A stretch of DNA of 64,000 nucleotides from contig NZ_BATP01000025.1 in assembly GCF_000739615.1 (NCBI RefSeq), positions 1 through 64,000 of the forward strand, given 5' to 3'. The notes beneath the pieces are model-generated. The model was not told the origin of the DNA and searched no databases. It saw nothing but the letters and a program-made list of their open reading frames with translations. The stretch is from Haloferula sp. BvORR071 (lineage in GTDB: Bacteria; Verrucomicrobiota; Verrucomicrobiia; Verrucomicrobiales; Akkermansiaceae). The translations under genes were made by a program, and so were the position numbers. Of this stretch, positions 18,833 through 31,496 are shown piece by piece. Within the stretch, counting starts at the first letter, position 1. Each line of letters begins with the position of its first letter.

Positions 18833-20872
18833 TCACTTGAGCGTGACAGCAGCAACGACCACCCGCAAGTCCGGAAGCGGAGCCGAGGGATCGGCAACCG
18901 GATTCACGCTGCGCAGAACGGTAAACTCCCGGGTCAGGGTGATCGTGGTCAGCGGTGCTGGCCGCGGGACCAGCGCCACCGTCGAGCCGTCCGCCGTGTC
19001 GACGACCTTGAGCTCGATGTTCACATCCTTGGTGATCGTCTCGGTGCGCGTGGTCATTTCCCAGTCCGTGCCGATCTTGAGCTTCACCCCCTTCTTCTTG
19101 CCCTCAACCGCTTGGAAGAAGGCATACTTGAGAGTGTTGCCAGTCCGGGGACGCAGCGGCACCTCGAAGACCACGTGGTTGTCGGCATCAAGGAAAGGCG
19201 CCGCAGGGCCGGTCGGCTGGGCGTCCGGATCGATGATCTCGTTCGGCACCTTCGTCGTCACCTTGTTGAACAGCGCCACCAGACCCAAAGCAGGAGCGGA
19301 GGGATCCGTCGTGCGCGACTGGAACTGCTCGCGGGCACTGGCCTGGATATCTTCGTTGGTCGGGAACTGGTAGGCAAACTCCTCGACGTTGGTCATCGAG
19401 TCGTGGTCGACGTTGCCGAATGGAGTCAGATCACGCTTAACCGTGCCGGCTGGCAGCGCGATCTGGGCATATCCAGTGAAGGAATCCACAAATTCGACCT
19501 TGGCGCGGAAGTTGCGAGACGAGAAGTCACCCGAAATACCGCTGCTGAACAGATTCCGCTGATACTCAAGATCCATCACGCCCTTCTGGCCGACATCGAA
19601 GAAGAACGGCGGCAAGGTGTACTGCTGCGCAGTCGGGGTCGGCAAGAACACTGGATTCTGCGGCACCGTCGGCGGGAACAGCAGGCGTTCTTCGGATTCA
19701 TTCAGGATCGAGAAGAAGATCAGGTCGCCGGGGCGAACCACCGTCCGGTCGTTACCCACCCAGCGGATCTTGTTAATCGTCCGCGGGTCCATCTGGTAGA
19801 CATCCTTCCGCCAGGTGCCGCTCGTGAAGCGGAAGCCACCCCGGGTCCGACCAGCCAAGGTCACGGCTTCCAGGTTCGGCACGATCGTCACCGGAATCGC
19901 CACCGGATTCAGATCAGGAGTCCCGAGGCGCGGGTAGGTGAAAACGTAGGTGCCGGGGATGATCTCCTCGTTCATCTGCTTCAGGGCCGCCTCATTCGGT
20001 GCCGTGGAGCCTTGAGTCGTATTGATGCTGGTCGGCACCGGCATGCCGTCCACCAGCGCCGTGCCTACATCCAGGGCCACATTCAGCGTGGTGTCATTGC
20101 CGTTGGCCACGCGCTCGGTGAGCGTCACAGCACTACCGAGACCGCCGATCGCGTAGACCGAGTTGACCGCGGCGTTGGACGCCAGGGCCGAGCGCAGGTT
20201 CTCCGCCCATTGCGACCCCACCAATCCAGCCTCGACATTGTAAGTGATCACCAACGGAGAGCCTACGATATCCACGCCAGTCACCGTCGCCGTCATGGTG
20301 CCCGGGAGGTTCACATTCCCCAAGGCCTGCACCGTTTCCACCTGGCGGACCGAACCGTAGGGACGGTTCAATTCGTAGCGGGATTGGTCATACTGGACCA
20401 CCAGCGCCGTACTGATGTCGAAGAAGGTGATGACCGAGTCATCGCGGAAATTCGCCAGCGGCCGCGGCATCTTGGACGGCGGAGCCGAGTAAAGCAGGCA
20501 GAGCTCGGGACGGCCCGGCTCGACCACCAAGGCGGGAATCACTCCCGAAACCGACCAATACTGGTTGTCGTCGCGCACCCCGTCACGGTCCACGTCACCG
20601 CTCGCAACGAAACCGGTCGCACCCAGCGGGCAGGGCGGAATGTTCGAGGGCGGGAAGAAGAAAAGCTGCGGGTCCACCACGCAGGCACCGTCGAGAATCA
20701 CCAAACCATCCCGCAACAAGACGTTCAGGTTACCCCGCTCAAAGCGGGCGGTAAGAGGAGAAGTCTGGTAGAAAAGCTTGTCCGCCGAGAGCAGCATCAC
20801 GATGTCCGCGTGAGCTGCGGCGGCGGACGCGAAAAGGGTTGCGGCGGCAATGAGACTCCGGTGGGTTTCCAT
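18833..20872 (-). CDS. Secreted protein of unknown function
   Basis: The start at 20872 is chosen for its signal peptide (METHRSLIAAATLFASAAAAHA); codons further upstream do not form one. The 679-residue product is not assigned to a family. Visible features are an acidic metal-binding type loop (DVDRDGVRDDNQYW) near 80, a long beta-rich middle with many Val, Thr and Pro, a second EF-like turn GNVDHDSMTNVEEFA near 490, and a C-terminus with strand-like repeats ending DLRVVVAAVTLK. No catalytic motif or membrane anchor is evident beyond the signal peptide. It lies between rho and rnd on the same strand, each about 110-130 bases away. It may be a lineage-specific surface or periplasmic protein. 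Confidence 0.75.
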   Translation of the reverse strand: METHRSLIAAATLFASAAAAHADIVMLLSADKLFYQTSPLTARFERGNLNVLLRDGLVILDGACVVDPQLFFFPPSNIPPCPLGATGFVASGDVDRDGVRDDNQYWSVSGVIPALVVEPGRPELCLLYSAPPSKMPRPLANFRDDSVITFFDISTALVVQYDQSRYELNRPYGSVRQVETVQALGNVNLPGTMTATVTGVDIVGSPLVITYNVEAGLVGSQWAENLRSALASNAAVNSVYAIGGLGSAVTLTERVANGNDTTLNVALDVGTALVDGMPVPTSINTTQGSTAPNEAALKQMNEEIIPGTYVFTYPRLGTPDLNPVAIPVTIVPNLEAVTLAGRTRGGFRFTSGTWRKDVYQMDPRTINKIRWVGNDRTVVRPGDLIFFSILNESEERLLFPPTVPQNPVFLPTPTAQQYTLPPFFFDVGQKGVMDLEYQRNLFSSGISGDFSSRNFRAKVEFVDSFTGYAQIALPAGTVKRDLTPFGNVDHDSMTNVEEFAYQFPTNEDIQASAREQFQSRTTDPSAPALGLVALFNKVTTKVPNEIIDPDAQPTGPAAPFLDADNHVVFEVPLRPRTGNTLKYAFFQAVEGKKKGVKLKIGTDWEMTTRTETITKDVNIELKVVDTADGSTVALVPRPAPLTTITLTREFTVLRSVNPVADPSAPLPDLRVVVAAVTLK

Positions 20873-21003
20873 GGGCAAAACCTTCCGCCTGCCCTGTCCT
20901 TTGACAAGGCAATTCTTGGCGCAAACAACCACCTTCACGGAGTCTTCACAGACGCCGTGCGGGTCCAAGAATGCATCGTGAATGCTATGTCACACATGAC
21001 GCG

Positions 21004-23004
21004 CTAGCGCAAGCCCCGAAGCAGCAATTCTGCGTTCGTTTTCGTCGCCCGCAGATTCTTCACCAAGGTGTCAATCGCATCCCCCACCGGCAGCTGCGCG
21101 AGCTGTCTGCGCAGGTCCAGCACCTTCATGAACTCGTCGGGATGATACAAGCGGTCGTCGTTGCGGGTCCCGCTCTGCGGAATATGAATCGCCGGGTAAA
21201 CGCGGCGCTCGGCCAGCTCCCGATCCAGCCGGACCTCCATGTTGCCGGTGCCCTTGAATTCCTCGAAAATCACATCGTCCATCCGGCTCTCGGTCTCGAT
21301 CAGCGCCGTCGCCAAGACGGTCAGGCTCCCGCCCTCCTCGACGTTCCGCGCATTTCCGAAAAACTTCCGCGATTTCTGCAAAGCCGCCGGACTGACGCCC
21401 CCGCTGCCGATCGGGCCGCCTTGGTTCGCCGAGTTGTGACCACGCGCCAAACGCGTCAGGCTATCCAGCAGCAATACCACATCCTTGCCTTGCTCCACCA
21501 GCCGGCGCGCCCGCTCGATCACCAGATCAGCGACCTGCGCATGGCGCCGCGGCGCTTCGTCGAAGGTGGAGGCATAGACCGTGGTTCCCACCGTCTCCTC
21601 GAAGTCGGTGACCTCCTCGGGCCGCTCGTCCAGCAACACCACAATCAATTCAATCTCAGGATGATTGCGCCGGATCGCCTTCGCGATCTGCTTGAGCAGA
21701 ATCGTCTTGCCGCCGCGCGGCGGTGCCACGATCAGGCCGCGCTGGCCCTTGCCCAAGGGCGCCACCAGATCCAGAACCCGCACGCTGACGGCCTCGACCC
21801 CCTCGCCCTCCAGGACGATCCGGCGATCAGGAAACAGCGGGGTCAGTTTGTCGAACTCCTTCGGCACCTTGTATTCGGCCGCCGGAATCCCCTCAATCTC
21901 AAGGACCTCCGAGGCGGAAAGATACTTGTCCCGGTCGCGCGGTGCCCGGATCCGGACCTTCACCCGGTGGCCAGCCCGCAAGCCGTGATCCCGCAGGAGA
22001 TGGCCATTCACATACAGATCGTCCGGGCAGGTCCGGAAGCTCCGCGCCGGATCACGCAGCATCGCGTAATTCTCCTTGGCTTGCTCCACAATGCCCTCGC
22101 CGATCAGGGTCGCCCCTTCATTGGCGTAAAAGCTCAGCAATTCGAAAATCAGTTGGGTCTTCGGCGCACCCGCCGTGATCCGCGCAGGCACGGCCTCCGC
22201 CATCGCATGCAGCTCACCCAAGGACTTGAGCCGGAAGGCATTGATATCGATGATCTGGGGCTGGGGGGCCGCCTCCTGCACCGCGGCGGCGGGCGTCGTG
22301 GTGGCAGTCGGATCGGCGGGGAGCTCAGGGAGCTGGGTGTCGTCGCTCATGATGGCGTGAGATAAAAGGAAGCGCCGGATTTGCGCTTCCAGCAGGGCGG
22401 CCGGTCCTTCATTCCAGAAGACATGATCGGCCCGGCGGAGCTTTTCTTCCTGGGGCATCTGGGCCGCGAAAATGGCATCGATCGTGGTATCGTCGAAACC
22501 GTTGCGTTTCCGCAGACGCTGGCGGCGGGTTTCCTTGCCGGCAGCCACCAGAAGATTGGCTTCCTGACCGAGGTCGAATCCGTTCTCGAAGAGAAGCGGG
22601 ATGTCCGCGACAAAGAGGGCCGCCCCCACTCTGCGGGCGGATGCCGAAGATTCAAGACATTCCTCGCGGACCCGCGGATGCAGGATTCCCTCGAGTTCCT
22701 TCCGCGCCGCGTCATCCCCGAAGACCTTGCCGCGCAAAACTTCGCGCCGCACCGCACCGCTTTCATCCAGCACCTCGGCTCCGAAGCGCTCCGCAATTCT
22801 GCGGGGAATTTCTCCCGCAGTGGCGAGCAGCCCGTGCACACAAGCGTCGGCATCGAAAATCACCGCCCCCGGGCAAAGTTTCCCGAGGATCTGGCAAGCG
22901 GTCGATTTGCCGCTGGCGATCCCACCGCTCAGGCCGAACACATGCACGCCGCGAAATAGCCCCCCACTGTCTGGCGGGCAACCGGGAAGTGCACTCGCCC
23001 TCAT
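21004..23004 (-). CDS. Dephospho-CoA kinase fused in frame to transcription terminator Rho
   Basis: One uninterrupted frame of 666 codons covers both enzymes. Residues about 19-218 are CoaE: P-loop [28 protein letters not shown] and [11 protein letters not shown]; this domain phosphorylates dephospho-CoA in the last step of CoA synthesis. Residues 219-666 are Rho: an acidic/Pro-rich lead, RNA-binding fold, Walker A APPRGGKT, Walker [15 protein letters not shown] and [21 protein letters not shown]. There is no stop between them (…[17 protein letters not shown]…). The start may be ATG 23004 or GTG 22950, the latter right before HVFGLSGG. An internal ATG at 22350 could also make Rho alone, but no good ribosome-binding site precedes it. 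Adjacent coaE-rho order is also known from Chlamydia. Confidence 0.88.
22348..22350 (-). other. rho: CoaE/Rho junction and possible internal start of rho
   Basis: ATG at 22350 begins [11 protein letters not shown], a natural-looking Rho N-terminus that would give 448 residues. The 20 bases before it are pyrimidine-rich (TTCCTTTTATCTCACGCCATC region) and show no GGAGG-like site. Whether the cell makes a fusion, separate Rho by internal initiation, or both, cannot be decided from sequence. Confidence 0.5.
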
Positions 23005-23040: not shown

Positions 23041-23080
23041 CAAACAAAAAGCGGGCGGAAGGTCACCCTTCCGCCCGCTT
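23041..23080 (-). terminator. Intrinsic terminator of the pilus-like operon
   Basis: A perfect 14-bp stem (AAGCGGGCGGAAGG with its complement, loop of 4) occupies 23049-23080. Read on the minus strand it is followed by TTTTTGTTTG. It lies 29 bases beyond the secretin stop and is the clearest Rho-independent terminator in the window, ending the 30540-23109 operon before coaE-rho. Confidence 0.88.
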
Positions 23081-23108: not shown

Positions 23109-25751
23109 TTAGTTCGAAGGTGGCGGAGGCAGGACACTGCCGCTATCCACGGTCACCGACTCAGACCCCGGCTGGGGCTGGGTGGCACCGGAGGCATCGC
23201 GGATCGGCTTGCCGGTCGCGTCGATGATCTGCGCGGTCACGAAGATGATCAGGTTGCTCTTGATCCGGTTCTCAGCCTTGGACTGGAACAGGCGGCCAAC
23301 GATCGGCAGATCGCCGAACACCGGCACCTTGTCCTCCACGGTCTGGATGTCCTCGCGCATCAGGCCACCGACTGCGACGGTGTAACCGTCATAGATGGTC
23401 AGAGCGGTCGTCACGCGGCGGCTCGAGAACACCGGCATTTCGATCCGGTTTTCCGTGATGGTCACCGTGGTCGGGTTGCCGAGGAAGTCGGTCGCCGGGG
23501 ACTGGATCGGACTGCCGTAGTTCACGAAGCCTTCGAATTCGACGATGTCCGGCGCGAAGCGCAGGTCGATCACGAAGTCGTTGCCACCGATCGTCGGCTC
23601 GATCTCCAGCGTCACACCCGTGTTGCGGGTTTCGAAGGAGGTCGGGGTTGCCGGAGTCACGGGGAAGATACCACCACCGCTGCTCAGACCACCAAGGCCA
23701 CCGCCGTTGTTGTTGCCGCCGCCGATCGAGTTCGGAAGTTCGGGGGGCTCGTATTCGGTCGGGTAGATGAATTCGCGGATGATCTCGATCGTCGCCTTCT
23801 CACCGGAACGAGCGGTCACGCTCGGCGCGGTCATCAGGTCGGTGCCCTTCTTCTGGGCAAGGCCGCGCATGATCATCTGCACCTGGCCGTCCGAGAACAG
23901 ACCGGTCAGGGCTGCGATACCCGGAGCCGGGCTGGCGCTCTGCGCGTTCCGGTTCGGGTTGTTGAGCACCGCATCGATGTTGTTGCGGTTGATCGCGCCG
24001 TCACCGCTGCGGAGACCGCCGGTCACGATGTCGGTCACGTTCGTGCCGGTCGCAGCCGGGACACCCGGGATCGTGGTGTTCGCCACGGTGCCGATGAAGT
24101 CGGCGTTGGTGCGGGTCTGGCCGCTGCCGATCGTGCCACCACCCAGGAACACGGAGTTCGCGGACAGGCCGAAGGGCGAAACGATCCAGTCGAAGCCAAG
24201 CTCGTCGGTGTTCTCCTGGGAGATTTCCACGAACTTGGTGGAGATCTTCACCTGCTTCGGCAGCTGGTTCACCACGGAATCCACCAAGCTTTCGATCAGG
24301 TCGATGTTGGACGGAGTGTTGCGGACCACCAGCTTGCCACCGGTGAGGGTCGCGGAAGCACCAGCCACATCGGCAACACCCTTGTCGCGCAGGACGTCGG
24401 TGATCTTGGGCTTGGGCTTCAGGGCCACACCCGGGCTACCGGAGGCTCCGCCACCGCCGAAGGGATCTTCGGCTGCGCCACCACCACCGCCACCACCATC
24501 TTCACTACCCGTGCCAAGGCGCGAGATGAAGTCCGGCGGCACCGTGAAGGTGCGGGTGAAAAGATCGATGTCGGTTTCGGTTCCGGGAACCAGCGTCACC
24601 GCATACTCGTCCACCTTGTAGCGCAGGCGGGTCGCGTCGCAGATGTACTTCAGCGCTTCAGCCAGCGGCACGTTGCGCAGGCGCAGCTCCTTGATGCGCA
24701 GGGCACCTGGATCGCCACCGGTCGCACCGAGGCCACCACCGGCCGCGTCGGGCGTCACTGCGGCGTCACCGCCACCACCGGCACGTGGCTTGCGCACCAC
24801 GAAGTTGATGCCCTTCTTGGAAGGATCGGTTTCGCGCACGTCCAGCTCGCGGGAGCGCAGGCGCAGGAAGTCGATCGCTTCTTCCACCGAGGTATCCTCG
24901 AAGTCGATGACCGGGATGATGGTGTTGCGGAGCTTTTCGAGGATGTATTGGGTTCCACCCTTGGCTTCCATGGCACCACTGTCAACCGGGCCCGGGGCGC
25001 CGGTGTTGATCGGAGCCACGGCCAGTTCCCAGGCCTTGTCCACCTGCGCGAGCAGCTCGGCGCGGGTTTGGTCATAGGCGGCGCGGTAGTAGTCGGCGCG
25101 GGCCTGGGCCACACGCTCCAAGCCACGGCGGGCGGCCTTGTTGTAAGGGTCGACACGGATCACGTCCTCGTAGTGACGGATCGCGTCGTCGAACTTGCCA
25201 AGATTGTAGGCACCTTCACCGAGGTAAAGGCTGCGGCGCACCTTGTCGACGTTCTCGGTGTGCTCACCGGTAGCGGCAGGGTTCGTGCGGATCGGATCAT
25301 CCAACCATTCGTTGACGCGCTTGGCATCAACGTTGTCCGGGTCCACCGCAAGCACACCATCAGCCAAAGCGCGGGCTTCAGGATATTTGCCATGGCGGCG
25401 GTTCGCATCAGCAGCAGCGATCGAAGCGTCAGACAGGTGCTGAATGATCACCTTGCGGCGGTCTGCAGTCGCCGGCGCTTCCGGCAGGACGCCGAGAGCT
25501 TCCTTATACTTGCCGACGGCTTCTTCGTACTTCTGGTGCGCGTAGGCTTCGCGGCCTTCAGCGAGCAAGCGATCGGCATCTGCCACCGCTTGTTGGCGGC
25601 GGATCATTTCTCTGCTGGCGAGAGGACTGCTGTAGCCGCCGCCGCCGCCTTCTCCGGCGTTGGCAACCGTCAGGGTGACCGGCATTACAGCTGCCAATGC
25701 CATCAGGGTGGCAGCAGTTCTGCTGGTGCGATTGGTTGGCGTTTTTTGCAT
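23109..25751 (-). CDS. Secretin with N-terminal TPR repeats (Amuc_1098 / PilQ-like)
   Basis: This 880-residue outer-membrane secretin has a signal peptide (1-32), a Gly-rich linker, and TPR-like helices (about 50-250; YEEAVGKYKEALGVLP, FDDAIRHYEDVIRVDP). STN/N-domains follow (VSVEEAIDFLRLRSRELDV-type and the LPKQVKISTKFVEI region), then a C-terminal secretin beta-domain with DGYTVAVGGLMRED and VPVFGDLPIVGRLFQSK, the family signature. It would form the multimeric channel through which a pilus or pseudopilus passes. TPR repeats joined to the secretin are typical of the Verrucomicrobia form; usual PilQ carries AMIN domains instead. Last gene of a five-gene operon with the same order as Amuc_1102-1098. 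A small hairpin (GCCGG/CCGGC) lies in its leader. Confidence 0.92.
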   Translation of the reverse strand: MQKTPTNRTSRTAATLMALAAVMPVTLTVANAGEGGGGGYSSPLASREMIRRQQAVADADRLLAEGREAYAHQKYEEAVGKYKEALGVLPEAPATADRRKVIIQHLSDASIAAADANRRHGKYPEARALADGVLAVDPDNVDAKRVNEWLDDPIRTNPAATGEHTENVDKVRRSLYLGEGAYNLGKFDDAIRHYEDVIRVDPYNKAARRGLERVAQARADYYRAAYDQTRAELLAQVDKAWELAVAPINTGAPGPVDSGAMEAKGGTQYILEKLRNTIIPVIDFEDTSVEEAIDFLRLRSRELDVRETDPSKKGINFVVRKPRAGGGGDAAVTPDAAGGGLGATGGDPGALRIKELRLRNVPLAEALKYICDATRLRYKVDEYAVTLVPGTETDIDLFTRTFTVPPDFISRLGTGSEDGGGGGGGAAEDPFGGGGASGSPGVALKPKPKITDVLRDKGVADVAGASATLTGGKLVVRNTPSNIDLIESLVDSVVNQLPKQVKISTKFVEISQENTDELGFDWIVSPFGLSANSVFLGGGTIGSGQTRTNADFIGTVANTTIPGVPAATGTNVTDIVTGGLRSGDGAINRNNIDAVLNNPNRNAQSASPAPGIAALTGLFSDGQVQMIMRGLAQKKGTDLMTAPSVTARSGEKATIEIIREFIYPTEYEPPELPNSIGGGNNNGGGLGGLSSGGGIFPVTPATPTSFETRNTGVTLEIEPTIGGNDFVIDLRFAPDIVEFEGFVNYGSPIQSPATDFLGNPTTVTITENRIEMPVFSSRRVTTALTIYDGYTVAVGGLMREDIQTVEDKVPVFGDLPIVGRLFQSKAENRIKSNLIIFVTAQIIDATGKPIRDASGATQPQPGSESVTVDSGSVLPPPPSN

Positions 25752-25818
25752 GGTTGGGATGGTGTTCTGCCGGTCTAACCGGCTAATGGGAAGCGATTTT
25801 TTTCAAAAACAATTTGAT

Positions 25819-26901
25819 TTACTCCGTAGGTGTGCCGGCTGCGTCAGTCCGCTTCGCCGGGCCGCCCTTGGGGATCGACCAGCTCTGCTTGCCCTTCTCG
25901 TCGGTGTATTCCACCTCGACCCCCTCCGGGGTCACCTTCTTCAAGAAATACTTCTTCTCGGTAGCCGTGGAAGGCAGGGCGAAGGCAGTGCCTTCCTCGA
26001 CCTTGAACTCCTTGCCTTTCTCGCCGACGGCCTGGAGATCCAGAACCGCGGTGCGATCGAAGTAAGCGTGGCTGTCGATCTCGTTTTCCGGCAGGCGCTC
26101 CTGGGACTCATACTTGGTGCCCTTTTTGTTGGCCTTCAGGTCCTCGTAGATGCCCACGTTCACGGTTTCCTCCGACTTCGTGCGCTCACTGGTAACCTTC
26201 TTCGCCACGATTTCGAGGAAGCGGAAGCGCTCCTTGAAGGTCTTGTCCTTGAAGAAGAGATCGCCCGGCTTGATCATCTCCGCCGCGCTCACGCGGTTGT
26301 CGAACTTCGCCCCGGCGGCCGACTGGCCCAGCAACTTCGGCGCCCACTGGCCGTCCGACGCAAGACCGAAGGTCACATACCACTTCACGGACTCGTCCTT
26401 GATGTAAGCCAGCTTCTTGATCACCGGCGGCACATCCTTCTGATCCATCGGATTTGTATGTGCCTCAAACTCTTCCAAGTTGCTGAAGCCATCGTTGTCG
26501 TCGTCGCGAGCCGGCGAATCGGCATGCGTCATGTCAGCACCGGTTCTCTCCCACCAATCGTTGTCGATCGGCGGGTGCACCATGGCGCCGCGGCGCGGCT
26601 CGATCGGATGCGTAGGATCGTTCTTGGTGGCAAACAGGTTAACCCCGGTAAAGAGGTTGACCCCGCGGGTGGTATCCACCGCCTGCTTGACCGTGAGGTT
26701 ATTCATCAGCGAGGCACCTGCAGTCTTGGCTGCTGGAGCCTCCGGAATCGTTGGATCCTTCTTGCCGTCGCGAGCGACTTCATAATTGAAGTCGGTTCCG
26801 ACCGCGTTGGATTTCATGAAGCCCAGAGCGATGAAGCCGATCGCGCAAACGCCGGCAGCACCTAGCAAGGCTTTCTCAAAGTTTTTGGGTAACTTGGACA
26901 T
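25819..26901 (-). CDS. Amuc_1099-like pilus-locus protein with calcium-binding type repeat
   Basis: The product has 360 residues. A single N-terminal membrane helix (about 10-27, GAAGVCAIGFIALGF) anchors a periplasmic domain. Around residue 128 a thrombospondin-3/EF-type loop occurs (DDDNDGFSNLEEFEAHTNP), followed by beta-strand-rich sequence up to a C-terminal KKGG-like basic end. Position between the Amuc_1100-like and secretin genes, 18 and 67 bases away, equals Amuc_1099 in Akkermansia. By position it may correspond to PilP-like alignment proteins linking inner-membrane complex and secretin, but I see no clear PilP signature. Confidence 0.8.
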   Translation of the reverse strand: MSKLPKNFEKALLGAAGVCAIGFIALGFMKSNAVGTDFNYEVARDGKKDPTIPEAPAAKTAGASLMNNLTVKQAVDTTRGVNLFTGVNLFATKNDPTHPIEPRRGAMVHPPIDNDWWERTGADMTHADSPARDDDNDGFSNLEEFEAHTNPMDQKDVPPVIKKLAYIKDESVKWYVTFGLASDGQWAPKLLGQSAAGAKFDNRVSAAEMIKPGDLFFKDKTFKERFRFLEIVAKKVTSERTKSEETVNVGIYEDLKANKKGTKYESQERLPENEIDSHAYFDRTAVLDLQAVGEKGKEFKVEEGTAFALPSTATEKKYFLKKVTPEGVEVEYTDEKGKQSWSIPKGGPAKRTDAAGTPTE

Positions 26902-26919
26902 GACCTTAATTGGTTAGCG

Positions 26920-27921
26920 TTACTTCTTGGGCGCCTTGGCCGCAGGGGCGGCAGGCTCGAGGAATTGAACGATGTCGAGTCGAAGGAAGACATTGATTCC
27001 TTCCGAACCGAGCACCTGCTTGAGGATGATTCCGTCACCGCCTGCTGCCGGTGCGGCAGCCGCTGGCGCGGGAGCGGGCGTTGCTGGAGCCGCTGGCTCC
27101 GGCTCACCGGGCAGGACGAACCCACCGGCGCCGCCGCCGAAGGCATCGCCACCGGCACCACCACCCGTAGCTGCGGGCTCATCGCTCTTGAATTCGGCGT
27201 CAGCCGCGGTCGGAGCCTTCGGCTTCTCGTTGGTCACCCGGATCGAGCGAATCACGTAGTAGTGCTTCGAGTCATCCAGCGCGGAGAGGAACTTGCGGAA
27301 GGTCTCTTCTTTGCAGTTGATGGCCATCTCGAAGGGCAAGGCGCGGAGCATCTTGCCGGTGGCATCGAAGGGCTTGCCATCTTCCTCCGCCAAGTGCGGA
27401 CGATGCAGGTTCAGCAACTTCACGGGACCCGCCGCAGCAAGGTTCTCCATCAATTGGCTGATGCCATCCAACTCGAAGGTCAGGACGCCGGTGGCCTCCT
27501 TCTTCACCGCAGACTCCTTGTAGGCTTCGAACCCGATGAAGAACTCGGCCGGGACTTCGCCCTTGGCATCGGTGATTGCCTTCGCCGCGGCATCGCGCGC
27601 CTTGATCACCGCGGTGTTGAAATCACCCGGGTCGATGTTCGGCGGTTGCGGGGCTTGGAACTTCTTGAAGGCGTCTTGAAGCTTGGTGACGTCCTCCTTG
27701 TAGTCCCGGACGGCCTTCTCCTTTTCGGAGAGGTAGGCGTCCTTCGGATAGAGCTTGCCGTCGGTCATGGTGCTGACCTCCCCGGCAAGGGCATCATAGT
27801 CTTCCTTGGCCTTGGAGTAGCCACTGCCCTGCGAGACGGCAAAGGCGATCAAGCCAATGGCGGCGACGGCGGTGGCACCGCCGAGACCGGCAGCGAAACG
27901 GTTTTCCTGGATCCAGCTCAT
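26920..27921 (-). CDS. Amuc_1100-like pilus-locus membrane protein
   Basis: The protein has 333 residues: a short cytoplasmic lead, one membrane helix (about 10-29, AGLGGATAVAAIGLIAFAV), a coiled-coil (about 33-95), then a compact alpha/beta domain, and a Pro/Ala/Gly-rich linker (about 245-300) before a last strand pair (VFLRLDIVQF). Gene position, length (Akkermansia Amuc_1100 is 317 residues) and local matches such as the YVIRSIRVTNEKP segment against YLFTVNSIRIRNER support homology. Amuc_1100 is the Akkermansia surface protein reported to signal through TLR2, and its fold resembles PilN/PilO-type proteins. In this organism the likely job is assembly of the inner-membrane platform of the pilus-like machine. 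Confidence 0.87.
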   Translation of the reverse strand: MSWIQENRFAAGLGGATAVAAIGLIAFAVSQGSGYSKAKEDYDALAGEVSTMTDGKLYPKDAYLSEKEKAVRDYKEDVTKLQDAFKKFQAPQPPNIDPGDFNTAVIKARDAAAKAITDAKGEVPAEFFIGFEAYKESAVKKEATGVLTFELDGISQLMENLAAAGPVKLLNLHRPHLAEEDGKPFDATGKMLRALPFEMAINCKEETFRKFLSALDDSKHYYVIRSIRVTNEKPKAPTAADAEFKSDEPAATGGGAGGDAFGGGAGGFVLPGEPEPAAPATPAPAPAAAAPAAGGDGIILKQVLGSEGINVFLRLDIVQFLEPAAPAAKAPKK

Positions 27922-27956
27922 GGTCGAGGTATCAAAAAAGGTTTTTTAAAGGGCTT

Positions 27957-29849
27957 TCAGCGGCTCGGTACCTCTTGGGAAAGCGGGATGATGAGTTCGA
28001 AGCTACCCGCAAAGTCGGCTTCAGCGGGAGCGGTGTCGAGATGCTGGACAAGCAGCTCGTCTGGAATCTCTTGCGGTTTGTCGGCATCCTTCGGCGCCTT
28101 GGCACCCGGAGCGACGTATGGCAGCGCGGTGAACTTGAAGTGGCTGCCAGTGGTGTTCGAGCGCAGGCGCTTGATCAGATCGTAGACGATCTTGCTCTGC
28201 GCTGGATTGTCACTGCTGCGCCAGAGGCCACGGATCCGGACCGCATTCGCGTTCGGAATCACATCGGCAGTCGGAGCGGCACCGGCCTTCGGCGTCTTGG
28301 CACCTACAGGCTGGTCGATCTTGATGTTCTCCAAGCCGCTGGTGCCGTAGTTCTGGGCGAAGAACTCACCCTTCACGATCGACTTCGGCTTGTTCTCCTT
28401 GCCGGCCAGCGGCTGGTGATTGTAGAGCGGCTCGAAGTCGGTGACCCACACGATATCGCTGGCGAAGGCCGCCTGCAGCTCCTGCATGGTGCCAAGCCAG
28501 AAGTTGCGGGCTTCCTCGGTCGCGGTGTACTGGGACGCCGTCTCCACCAGGGCTGCCTGCTTCTTGAACTCGTCTTGGATCGGACCGTAAACCTTGGTCA
28601 GGCTGTCCTTCTGGTCACTCAGTTCGCCGAGCTTCTTCTCGGCGTTGGACTTGGCCACCATGTTCAGCACGCCCCAGCCAGCCAGACCCGCCAGCAACAG
28701 CGCCGCGGCACCGATGAAGAAGGGCTTCTGCTTGTCAGCGGTGCGGGCCGCCTGGACCTTGGTCGGAACCAGATCGATGTTGATCGAGGATTTGCCGATG
28801 CTGCGCAGGCCGAGACCGATCAGCTCACCCATCAGGTGGGCTTCGCGGCCGAGCTTCTCGGTATCGACATTCTTGCCGACGGAGATCGCGCTCACCGGAT
28901 TGAAGAACTCCACCGGCAGGTGCAGCTTCTCTTCGAAGAATTCCTTGGTGTAGGGCAGGTTCGCGCCACCACCGGCCAGCACCACCATCTTCGGGGCGTT
29001 GCCGCCATGCTGGCTGCGATAGTAGTTCGTGGTACGGGCGATTTCCGCGGGCAGCTGGCCGAGCGCGTTGCGAATCGTCGAGGCGAGCGCCGCGGTGGTT
29101 TCGTCAAGCTGTTCGGTATGGCCGCCACCCAGCGCCACCAGGCCGCTGTGGGTCTTGTGGGACTCCGCTTCCGCGAAGGGCACACCGTATTCCTTGGAGA
29201 TCGCCGAGGTGATCGACACACCGCCGCGGTTCACGCTGCGGGTGAAGAAGCGCTTGCCCTCGATGTAGAGCAGGTCCGTCGCCTTGGCCCCGATGTCGAT
29301 CAGGAGCACTGGCTCGGTGACATTCGGATAGGCCGCGCGGAAGGCATTGTAGAGGGCCATCGGCGCCACATCCACTTCCGCGGTGGTCAGGCCACTGGAG
29401 GTGACCGACTCGTTGAGTTCGTCCAGGGATTCAGCCTTGATCGCAACGATCACGACTTCCTTCTCGCCGGAGCTTTCCAGAATCTCGTAGTCCCACGCCA
29501 CCTCTTCCAGCGGGAAGGGCACGTGCTGCTGGGCTTCGAAGGTCACCAGCTGCTCGACATTGTCGTCGTCGAGCGGCGGCAGCTTCACGAAACGGGTGAA
29601 GACCGACTGGCCGGAGACCGCATAGCGGACTTTGCCTTTGCCGGCGGCCTTGAGGCGCTGCGTGAGCTGGCCGATGGCATACGAAATCTGTGCCGGGCGC
29701 GAAGGCTCGGTCGCCGGATCGGCAAGCACGGTTTCGCTGTCGTATGCCTTCAGGACCAGGCTATTCCCGGACTTGGCAGGCTCAAATATGGCCATGCTGA
29801 CCCGCTGGGAGCCGATGTTTAATGCAATGGAGGTCTGGTTATCAGCCAT
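27957..29849 (-). CDS. PilM-like actin-fold ATPase joined to a PilN-like segment (Amuc_1101)
   Basis: Residues 1-350 form a PilM/FtsA-type ATPase fold: ALNIGSQRVSMAIF, LPPLDDDNVEQLVTFEAQQHVPF, LLIDIGAKATDLLYI and the second phosphate-type motif VVLAGGGANLPY. After NIDLVPTK comes a transmembrane helix (about 377-398, FFIGAAALLLAGLAGWGVL) and a coiled-coil (AEKKLGELSDQKDSL), then an alpha/beta domain to residue 630. The order cytosolic PilM plus membrane PilN-like region in one chain replaces two separate genes of classical type IV pilus operons. It lies 35 bases before the Amuc_1100-like gene. The single chain would couple a cytosolic ATPase to the periplasmic PilO/PilP-like parts. Confidence 0.9.
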   Translation of the reverse strand: MADNQTSIALNIGSQRVSMAIFEPAKSGNSLVLKAYDSETVLADPATEPSRPAQISYAIGQLTQRLKAAGKGKVRYAVSGQSVFTRFVKLPPLDDDNVEQLVTFEAQQHVPFPLEEVAWDYEILESSGEKEVVIVAIKAESLDELNESVTSSGLTTAEVDVAPMALYNAFRAAYPNVTEPVLLIDIGAKATDLLYIEGKRFFTRSVNRGGVSITSAISKEYGVPFAEAESHKTHSGLVALGGGHTEQLDETTAALASTIRNALGQLPAEIARTTNYYRSQHGGNAPKMVVLAGGGANLPYTKEFFEEKLHLPVEFFNPVSAISVGKNVDTEKLGREAHLMGELIGLGLRSIGKSSINIDLVPTKVQAARTADKQKPFFIGAAALLLAGLAGWGVLNMVAKSNAEKKLGELSDQKDSLTKVYGPIQDEFKKQAALVETASQYTATEEARNFWLGTMQELQAAFASDIVWVTDFEPLYNHQPLAGKENKPKSIVKGEFFAQNYGTSGLENIKIDQPVGAKTPKAGAAPTADVIPNANAVRIRGLWRSSDNPAQSKIVYDLIKRLRSNTTGSHFKFTALPYVAPGAKAPKDADKPQEIPDELLVQHLDTAPAEADFAGSFELIIPLSQEVPSR

Positions 29850-29907
29850 GACGGGCTAGGGAAGAAAGACGGGGTTTTTGACGCGCTAATCCTGGGGACG
29901 GGGAAAA

Positions 29908-30540
29908 TCAGCGTTCCTTCTGGATCTCTGCGTAACGGTCGTACCAGAGCATCGCAAAGGGCGTCTCGTTCTTGCTGAGCAGCGGGAACTTCTCGCTCTG
30001 GTCGGACAGGGCCGGGGCATTCCACCACAGCTCCTTCGCCTTTTCAGAGGCTTGGCCAACCTTCACGCCATCCACCAGCACCTCGATGCCCACGGCTTCG
30101 ACGGCACCCTTGTTGGCCTTGTCCTTGCCGGTCAGGCGCTTGATCGTGGCGGGCGACATGTAGACGGAAGTGAAGACTTCCTCATCCACCGGCACGTTGA
30201 TGTGATTGATGGTCTTGACCAGCTTGATGGCGCCTTTGCCATCGGGATTCTTCAGGCCGACATACCACTTCACGACCACCTGATTGATGTAGCCAATCTT
30301 CTTCTGCTCGGGGGTGGCGTCGATCTTCAGGCTGGCTTCCACTTCGAGCCAATCCTTCGGGGCGAACTTCTTGTCCTTGCCGGTCTTGATGTCCGGGGAC
30401 GGCAGGTCATCGAAGACCGGCTTGCCCACTTCAGCCTTTTGTTGGGCCTGGGCGGCCATTGGAAGCAGCGCAAATGCGGCTGCGGATGCGACTACGGCGG
30501 TGAGCGCCGACCTACGGACGGATGCGAAACGATGTTTCAT
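29908..30540 (-). CDS. Amuc_1102-like exported pilus-locus protein
   Basis: The protein of 210 residues has a signal peptide (1-33, ending MAAQA). The mature part of about 177 residues is predicted to be beta-rich (WLEVEASLKID, NQVVVKWYVGL, VGIEVLVDGVKVG) and ends FAMLWYDRYAEIQKER. It is the first gene of the pilus-like operon, 58 bases before the PilM-like gene, as Amuc_1102 is in Akkermansia, whose protein has an immunoglobulin-like fold like some archaeal pilus components. A structural or capping role at the envelope is inferred. The operon promoter should lie in 30541-30701. Confidence 0.82.
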   Translation of the reverse strand: MKHRFASVRRSALTAVVASAAAFALLPMAAQAQQKAEVGKPVFDDLPSPDIKTGKDKKFAPKDWLEVEASLKIDATPEQKKIGYINQVVVKWYVGLKNPDGKGAIKLVKTINHINVPVDEEVFTSVYMSPATIKRLTGKDKANKGAVEAVGIEVLVDGVKVGQASEKAKELWWNAPALSDQSEKFPLLSKNETPFAMLWYDRYAEIQKER

Positions 30541-30701
30541 GATGGGCTTTCGGTTTTTGGAGAACTAGGGAATGCTTCCCCGCATTGGCCAGAAGAATCC
30601 TCGTAATTTCATAGAAAATTCCGTCAGGTATATACAACCAAACCACGGTGCATCGACTGCTACGGTTGACAGCCGCGGCAGGGGGCGTTTCTGCTCGCAC
30701 C
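30541..30701. promoter_or_regulatory. Divergent promoter region, pilus-like operon / aroD
   Basis: This short region must drive both the pilus-like operon (minus) and aroD (plus). On the minus strand a weak TTGTAT ... TATGAA pair with an 18-base spacer lies about 75-105 bases upstream of the Amuc_1102-like start; the match to sigma-70 boxes is poor, so this is tentative. Confidence 0.3.
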
Positions 30702-31496
30702 ATGAGCCTGCCGCAAGTAACGCTGGATTCCGCTAGACCGCTGGTGGCGGGAAGTTTCGGAAATGCGGAAAGCCTTGCTGCGGCTAGCATCCACGGGGTT
30801 CGCCAAGCTTGCGACCTGGTCGAGATCCGCCTCGATCTGTTGGAGTCCGAAGGGGCCCTAACAAGCTCGCGGCCATGGGCCCATCTGGAGGGCCTGCCCC
30901 TGCTCTTCACCGCACGCCGGGGCGATGAGGGTGGTGCCGCAAACTTACCCGCGGAGCGGCGCATGGATTTGCTCGCCGCCGTCCTTGGCGAGGCCGCCTT
31001 GATCGACGTCGAATGGGCCTCCGCAGAAGAGATGGCCCCGCTGCTCTCCAAGCTCCGCGAAGCCGGCATCCCCTGGGTCGCCTCATGGCACGATTTCGAG
31101 GGCCGCCCCGGGTCCTTCGACCTCATTCCGGCCATGGCTGCCCAAGCCGCCGCCGCCGGTGCCGCCTGCTTCAAGGCCGCCCTGCGCCTCCACGATCTGG
31201 CTGGCCTCGCCCGCTTGGCCGAACTTCAGAAAGCCGCTACCAGCCCCACCGCGCTCATGGGCATGGGCCCGCTGGCCCCGGCCTCCCGCCTGCTCTGCGC
31301 CCAGCACGGCTCAGTCCTGAACTACGGCTACATCGGCAATGCCCCCACCGCCCCCGGCCAGTGGAGCGCCACCCTCCTGAAGGAGGCTATCCGACAATCT
31401 CTACCGGCGCATCCGGCAGGGCATCCAGAAACAGCCTCCCATAGCGCTTGGTCAAAATCCGGTTGTCCAGGATCGACACAAGCCCCTGATCCTTAG
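30702..31496 (+). CDS. aroD: Type I 3-dehydroquinate dehydratase
   Basis: The ATG at 30702 gives 264 residues. Type I AroD residues are visible: E41/R43 in VEIRLDLL, catalytic H130 in ASWHDFEGRP, Schiff-base K158 in ACFKAALRL, and the substrate loop LMGMGPLAPASRLL. It dehydrates 3-dehydroquinate to 3-dehydroshikimate in the shikimate pathway. The family's final helix ends near KEAIRQ; the last 30 or so residues (PAHPAGHP...) are read from the antisense of the convergent dinG-like gene, so the two coding regions overlap by 110 bases. No other aro gene is adjacent. Confidence 0.9.
   Translation: MSLPQVTLDSARPLVAGSFGNAESLAAASIHGVRQACDLVEIRLDLLESEGALTSSRPWAHLEGLPLLFTARRGDEGGAANLPAERRMDLLAAVLGEAALIDVEWASAEEMAPLLSKLREAGIPWVASWHDFEGRPGSFDLIPAMAAQAAAAGAACFKAALRLHDLAGLARLAELQKAATSPTALMGMGPLAPASRLLCAQHGSVLNYGYIGNAPTAPGQWSATLLKEAIRQSLPAHPAGHPETASHSAWSKSGCPGSTQAPDP

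Follow-up and report, generated by a model that had tools for sequence, protein, structure and literature searches.

Most descriptions of Amuc_1100, a widely studied beneficial protein of Akkermansia muciniphila, present it as a pilus-like protein of the outer membrane. What, then, does the locus that encodes it do in a relative outside the genus Akkermansia? We addressed this question with a stretch of 64,000 nucleotides from Haloferula sp. BvORR071 (contig NZ_BATP01000025.1, positions 1 to 64,000; the window), in which five consecutive genes belong to the families Amuc_1102 to Amuc_1098. Our analysis indicates that these genes probably encode the envelope scaffold, i.e., the alignment complex plus the outer-membrane secretin, of a Verrucomicrobiota type IV pilus machine. 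We also lean toward a broader interpretation, in which the locus would be a phylum-wide ancestral PilMNOPQ set with Amuc_1101 as a PilM-PilN fusion and Amuc_1100 as an inner-membrane-anchored PilO instead of a surface pilus subunit, so that the known host effects of the latter would arise secondarily from scaffold protein that is released.

Five Amuc-type genes and their proposed pilus counterparts

The genes follow one another in the order Amuc_1102, Amuc_1101, Amuc_1100, Amuc_1099, and Amuc_1098, all on the minus strand (30540-23109; Table 1). All five products score above the curated NCBIfam equivalog cutoffs, with 240.6 bits against 55 for the Amuc_1102 type (NF042424), 873.6 against 650 for the Amuc_1101 type (NF045709), 349.4 against 180 for the Amuc_1100 type (NF038287), 371 against 50 for the Amuc_1099 type (NF042425), and 1143.4 against 750 for the Amuc_1098 type (NF042912). 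Given the gaps of 58, 35, 18, and 67 bp between them, a spacing that is consistent with a single operon, we treat the five genes as a predicted operon. An earlier sequence-only reading of this DNA had described five codirectional genes in the Akkermansia order, with all coordinates right, and had called the 333-residue product Amuc_1100-like. This agrees with the family scores and with the match of that product, by sequence only, to the crystal chains of Amuc_1100 (PDB 6lad; E value of 9.4e-16).

The connection to type IV pili runs through the Amuc_1101-type protein. It reaches 164.7 bits with the pilM model TIGR01175 (cutoff, 133), and the PDB matches of its first domain are PilM chains, the best being 3jc8_Ma (E value of 4.7e-31). 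One hydrophobic window, starting at residue 377, leads into a second half whose profile retrieves the PilN chain 3jc8_Na from the PDB (E value of 2.8e-9) and scores 97.2% against PilN in hhalign. The Pfam scan placed one of four proteins, the homolog L045, above the cutoff of the PilN model PF05137, which the window protein by itself did not reach. Judged from these matches, a PilM fused to a PilN is a well-supported prediction for the Amuc_1101 type. With a PilN domain as its C-terminal half, the run 1101-1100-1099-1098 would therefore read PilM/N, PilO-like, a component of uncertain type, and PilQ. PilM-PilN-PilO-PilP-PilQ is the canonical gene order of the type IVa alignment complex. The sequence-only reading had held that the same order, if common in unrelated phyla with ordinary pilMNOPQ, would count against its proposal; a pilMNOPQ-type order is partly what we find, in diverged form, and it explains the locus rather than refuting it.

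In the PilO position, the Amuc_1100-type protein carries a hydrophobic N-terminal helix, and our scan found no prepilin motif in it. Its homolog L046 scores 26.2 bits with the PilO model PF04350 (cutoff, 22). We consider a PilO-like identity moderately supported by such comparisons and place less weight on the more specific suggestion that Amuc_1100 may not be a pilus subunit but a protein of the PilO type with an anchor in the inner membrane. The name "PilO" is given to Amuc_1100 in a passage of a 2024 paper (PMC11573778), and the pertinent section of a review (PMC13119276) likens its fold to those of proteins from type IV pili and from type II secretion.

The Amuc_1099-type protein occupies the PilP position. 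It combines an N-terminal hydrophobic helix, a TSP3-type DxDxDG motif at residue 133, and a C-terminal beta domain, and its AlphaFold model has a mean pLDDT of 80.7. The DxDxDG motif is almost invariant among Amuc_1099-type proteins; with the TSP3_bac model, the window protein scores 24.1 bits, slightly under the gathering score of 25. Zinc-ribbon-like CxxC pairs precede this motif in several Amuc_1099-type proteins from outside the Akkermansiaceae (e.g., L041, L042, L047, L048, and L051), and the DZR model is touched by 5 of 21 Amuc_1099-type proteins in alignment A6 (best E value, 0.011); the window protein has no such pairs.

In the Amuc_1098-type protein, TPR repeats precede a secretin domain (PF00263, 95.5 bits). 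A second Amuc_1098-type secretin above the family cutoff lies away from the operon in the window's genome (L107:8291-10768; match at contig C60:89305-91719) and likewise in an Akkermansia-like genome (L110:7344-9866), adjoined in each by an unnamed protein of 518 to 548 amino acids. Tandem Amuc_1098-type secretins at the operon end were seen in two other families (L112:2210-8068 and L113:2158-7208), an arrangement from which the distant second secretin may have originated. Two very long proteins from contig C60 of the window's genome, L108:5675-10687 (1670 amino acids, with von Willebrand A domains) and L109:3075-9968 (2297 amino acids, without a Pfam match at an E value of ≤0.01), are partly similar to the presecretin part of Amuc_1098.

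The first gene product matches the Amuc_1102 structure entry (PDB 7dsz) by sequence with an E value of 2.3e-31. By a simple motif scan, its export signal is of the ordinary Sec type, AQAQ at residue 30 being the AxA-type site, and no prepilin motif was detected; we rejected the idea that Amuc_1102 is a pilin. Its relatives were viewed over their first 40 residues, some of them being misstarted open reading frames (ORFs).

Table 1. Features of the predicted operon and its surroundings in the window
Feature	Coordinates	Strand	Length, evidence, or description
Amuc_1102-family (MUL2A) exported protein	29908..30540	-	210 aa; NCBIfam NF042424, PDB 7dsz, signal motif scan
Amuc_1101-family (MUL2B) protein, predicted PilM domain plus PilN-type half	27957..29849	-	630 aa; NF045709, TIGR01175, PF11104
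PilM (actin-like) domain, residues 11-350	28800..29819	-	PF11104 E value of 2.5e-37; PDB PilM chains
PilN-type half (residues 378-630) with a TM helix, a long helix, and an alpha/beta domain	27960..28718	-	
Amuc_1100-family protein	26920..27921	-	333 aa; NF038287, PDB Amuc_1100
Amuc_1099-family protein, PilP position	25819..26901	-	360 aa; NF042425
Amuc_1098-family TPR secretin (PilQ-type)	23109..25751	-	880 aa; NF042912, PF00263, TPR repeats
Intrinsic-terminator-like hairpin after the operon	23049..23080	-	14-bp stem, 4-nt loop, T-rich tail
CoaE (dephospho-CoA kinase) plus Rho single ORF, downstream neighbor	21004..23004	-	Pfam: CoaE 22-200, Rho RNA-binding 303-373, ATPase 408-611
Type I 3-dehydroquinate dehydratase, divergent upstream neighbor	30648..31496	+	PF01487 103.2 bits, cutoff 22.2

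Gene order across the phylum and the predicted rest of the machine

Our survey covered 144 genomes from the phylum, among them that of the window, all at least 90% complete. Matches to the Amuc_1100 family were present in 105 (12 above the cutoff; none found in 39), and the Amuc_1101 and Amuc_1098 families each matched 138 (12 and 15 above the cutoff, respectively; none found in 6 in either case). Many of these matches are distant, and many of the weaker Amuc_1100 matches span only the first ∼90 residues. Among 14 control genomes, the Amuc_1100 family matched one (Bacillus subtilis, below the cutoff), and the Amuc_1101 and Amuc_1098 families matched eight each, also below the cutoff and presumably due to ordinary PilM-, FtsA-, or secretin-type proteins.

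Synteny is a stronger test than family matches alone. Among the matches listed, an Amuc_1100 match stands directly after an Amuc_1101 match, i.e., on the same contig and strand and at most 1.3 kb behind it, in 103 of the 105 Amuc_1100-positive genomes. The exceptions are G071, where it lies on another contig, and G121, whose weak Amuc_1101 match is outside the matches listed; of the 138 genomes positive for Amuc_1101, 123 entered this comparison with their Amuc_1101 positions, and in the other 15, G121 among them, the best match has an E value of 4.8e-9 or worse. The same picture emerged from 20 loci of 7.8 to 13 kb that we hand-picked among the Amuc_1101-positive genomes of 19 families (match limit, E value of <0.1). 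All 20 share one layout, in which two genes separate an Amuc_1101-type gene from an Amuc_1098-type secretin gene (one locus has an extra small ORF). Amuc_1099 was recognized in 19 loci, Amuc_1100 in 17, all four genes from Amuc_1101 to Amuc_1098 in 16, and Amuc_1102 in 9; in the four loci where not all four were recognized, an unmatched ORF fills the gap. Moreover, all five genes occur in order in 26 of 37 loci from named genome records, the other 11 stopping at a contig end. The spread of Amuc_1101-Amuc_1100 synteny across the phylum is well supported, and in the surveyed genomes the gene order reaches beyond the order-level statement published so far. This wide synteny and the PilN-type C terminus of the PilM gene lend support to the earlier suggestion that assembly of the envelope or of a pilus was the ancestral job of the locus.

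Canonical PilN, PilO, and PilP were each found by Pfam in none of the 16 genomes of the Akkermansiaceae family in the sample. We dropped this absence as evidence that the operon is the sole scaffold; it is weak, because the three models match only 2, 2, and 0 of the 14 control genomes, respectively.

Given that the window lacks motor and pilin genes, the sequence-only reading had left two alternatives, an incomplete machine or one completed elsewhere, and the latter fits better. In the genome (7.8 Mb in 66 contigs), contig C65 has, according to Pfam, consecutive genes for two ATPases of the PilB/GspE type, one protein of the PilC/GspF type, and one prepilin, and a third PilB/GspE-type match is on C7. 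PilT-family ATPases, which power pilus retraction, are found on C47 and C60 (427.8 and 419.8 bits against a cutoff of 319.1), and another on C60 is slightly under the cutoff (299.9 bits). A scan for prepilin motifs gave 14 matches here, and each of 40 genomes of the family has at least one. By these matches, all pilus parts are present in the genome, and they would work jointly with the operon.

Proposed working of the scaffold and competing explanations

In type IV pili, the motor side is where PilM docks, PilN pairs with PilO in the periplasm, and the secretin serves as the gate in the outer membrane. By analogy, the Amuc_1101 type would act as PilM/N and offer a docking site for the motors PilB, PilC, and PilT and the pilins encoded elsewhere, with the Amuc_1100 type as a PilO-like partner that, from its predicted topology, would be anchored in the inner membrane. 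The Amuc_1099 type may be a membrane-anchored periplasmic linker that bridges PilN/O to the secretin, for which the Amuc_1098 type would provide a PilQ-type protein with a built-in TPR part. The Amuc_1102 type would be an additional Sec-exported, Ig-like protein of the periplasm or the surface. The pilus would then be extended by PilB and retracted by PilT and, following a proposal for the Akkermansiaceae (PMC13174399), might hold or pull glycan polymers or particles.

Such a role with glycans can also be conceived without a true extruded pilus, the locus (MUL2) being a glycan-capture device of its own. Akkermansia mutants in which MUL genes were required for mucin accumulation (Davey et al. 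2023, as related in PMC13174399 and in passages of PMC12418764) and the accumulation of fucoidan by marine Akkermansiaceae cells (PMC13174399) fit this idea, and such a device is compatible with a pilus scaffold and not exclusive of it. In its pilus-free form, we regard it as unlikely, given the PilT-family ATPases and prepilins in genomes of the same family and the PilB/C-like genes of the window's genome. A type II-like secretion scaffold, with PilM/N as GspL, Amuc_1100 as GspM, and Amuc_1098 as GspD, whose short pseudopili would move proteins or glycans, seems quite improbable to us: the first half of the fusion is PilM both by TIGR01175 and in its PDB matches, a profile search with the second half retrieves PilN, PilT-family ATPases are above the cutoff in 136 of the 144 genomes, and the genome has another secretin cluster that type II secretion could use. 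We give very little credence to the view, usual for Akkermansia, that the Amuc_1100 type serves as a surface subunit of a pilus or of the outer membrane and mainly signals to a host or partner; the immunofluorescence and envelope-fraction enrichment described for A. muciniphila in the relevant part of PMC5332112 speak for it.

Several results weigh against a type IV pilus scaffold or against the assignment of its parts. The GspD model (TIGR02517; 102.6 bits, cutoff 351.35) gives the secretin a slightly better score than the PilQ model (TIGR02515; 92.5 bits, cutoff 284.35), both far under the cutoff, and the genome has further secretins besides that of the operon, including one in a separate cluster on C45 that also encodes a T2SSE ATPase and, with a score under the cutoff, an ATPase resembling the PilT family. 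Because the PilB, PilC, and pilin genes are below the NCBI equivalog cutoffs, their identities as type IV pilus or type II secretion components are indistinguishable. The PilN-type half also scores 89.6% with PilO in hhalign, which makes the choice between PilN and PilO a matter of degree, and Foldseek alone gave no PDB match for it at an E value of ≤0.001. For the Amuc_1100 family, PF04350 was above the cutoff in 1 of 4 and 1 of 22 proteins, L046 both times, and matched 2 of 33 in another set with E values of 0.035 or worse; hhalign against 14 PilO proteins of the phylum, of which L103 and L105 look misstarted, gave 43% at best, and the first PDB match of a broad Amuc_1100 profile after Amuc_1100 itself was PilO at an E value of 0.067. 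Finally, neither profile nor fold comparison revealed PilP homology of the Amuc_1099 type, the PilP model PF04351 being insensitive (0 of 14 control genomes).

Should Amuc_1100 prove to be a PilO-like partner to a PilM-PilN fusion and a scaffold protein retained in much of the phylum, where it natively resides and what it does there would need retesting, and relatives such as Luteolibacter would be useful organisms for that purpose.

Surroundings, published record, and known systems

The "one strong terminator" of the sequence-only reading is real in form: the hairpin after the operon (23080-23049) has a perfect stem with 10 G-C pairs and is the sole one of nine terminator-like sites in the scanned 10 kb with a stem of more than 8 pairs (9.3 sites were expected by chance). 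Upstream of the operon, a scan found no sigma-70-like promoter. The downstream CoaE-Rho ORF is one uninterrupted frame of 666 amino acids, and CoaE and Rho follow Amuc_1098-1102-type operons in other loci too, making this ORF a conserved neighbor outside the machine. Both were present in 18 of 57 scanned loci, in one frame in 11 and in separate frames in 7. Beside CoaE-Rho, a 711-amino-acid ORF (18833-20968, minus strand) has no match in Pfam (E value of ≤0.1) or NCBIfam (E value of ≤0.01).

The genome is Luteolibacter-like, and the closest named proteins are from Luteolibacter. Identities to those of Luteolibacter sp. Populi are 71% for the Amuc_1100 type, 66% for the Amuc_1099 type, and 69% for residues 360 to 630 of the Amuc_1101 type. 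The window's genome shares a family (f1) with small genomes that we take to be Akkermansia; in one of them, G111, the Amuc_1100 protein of locus L054 is almost the same as the crystal sequence (E value of 1.7e-171). The window's genome would therefore belong to the family of Akkermansia while lying outside the genus; in this sense, the earlier placement outside the gut Akkermansia lineage is borne out. In four records titled Akkermansia muciniphila (L056, L062, L063, and L073), the Amuc_1100 type is 43 to 53% identical to the first member of the query family; these titles may be wrong, because Akkermansia-like L054 has 27%.

The Akkermansia locus was described by Ottman et al. (PMC5332112 and PMC4960237). 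NCBI already assigns these Amuc families in Luteolibacter and Haloferula, and the five-gene locus outside gut Akkermansia is already known: Wilkie et al. 2026 (PMC13174399) found MUL2A and MUL2B (Amuc_1102 and Amuc_1101) in 266 of 352 Akkermansiaceae genomes other than A. muciniphila and reported conserved MUL2 synteny in aquatic Akkermansiaceae, with Luteolibacter predominant in freshwater. The locus noticed in the sequence-only reading is therefore real but less new than thought. What we add to the printed record is the phylum-wide order, the predicted PilN domain in the Amuc_1101 type, and, with weaker support, the PilO-type interpretation of Amuc_1100.

Compared with MUL2 (Amuc_1098-1102) of Akkermansia and aquatic Akkermansiaceae, the window locus has the same five families in the same order and strand and the same neighbors, since CoaE, Rho, and 3-dehydroquinate dehydratase, which are among the mapped MUL2 neighbors (figure legend in PMC13174399), all flank it. 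It differs in its diverged Amuc_1100 protein (E value of 9.4e-16 to the crystal sequence; 27% identity to L054) and in its single CoaE-Rho ORF, the two being in separate frames in Akkermansia-like L054 and L055. With the type IVa PilM-PilN-PilO-PilP-PilQ set, it shares a PilM, a PilN-type half, a PilO-like protein, and a secretin in the same relative order. Unlike in that system, PilM and PilN would be one protein, the Amuc_1100 type is longer (333 amino acids) than the canonical PilO of the phylum (mostly 175 to 201), PilP is not detectable in the window, a TPR part is fused to the secretin, and there is an extra Amuc_1102 gene. With GspL-GspM-GspC-GspD of type II secretion, it has in common that an actin-like part in the cytoplasm is fused, as in GspL, to an alpha/beta domain in the periplasm, whereas its sequence profiles favor PilM and PilN and the genome encodes PilT-family ATPases.

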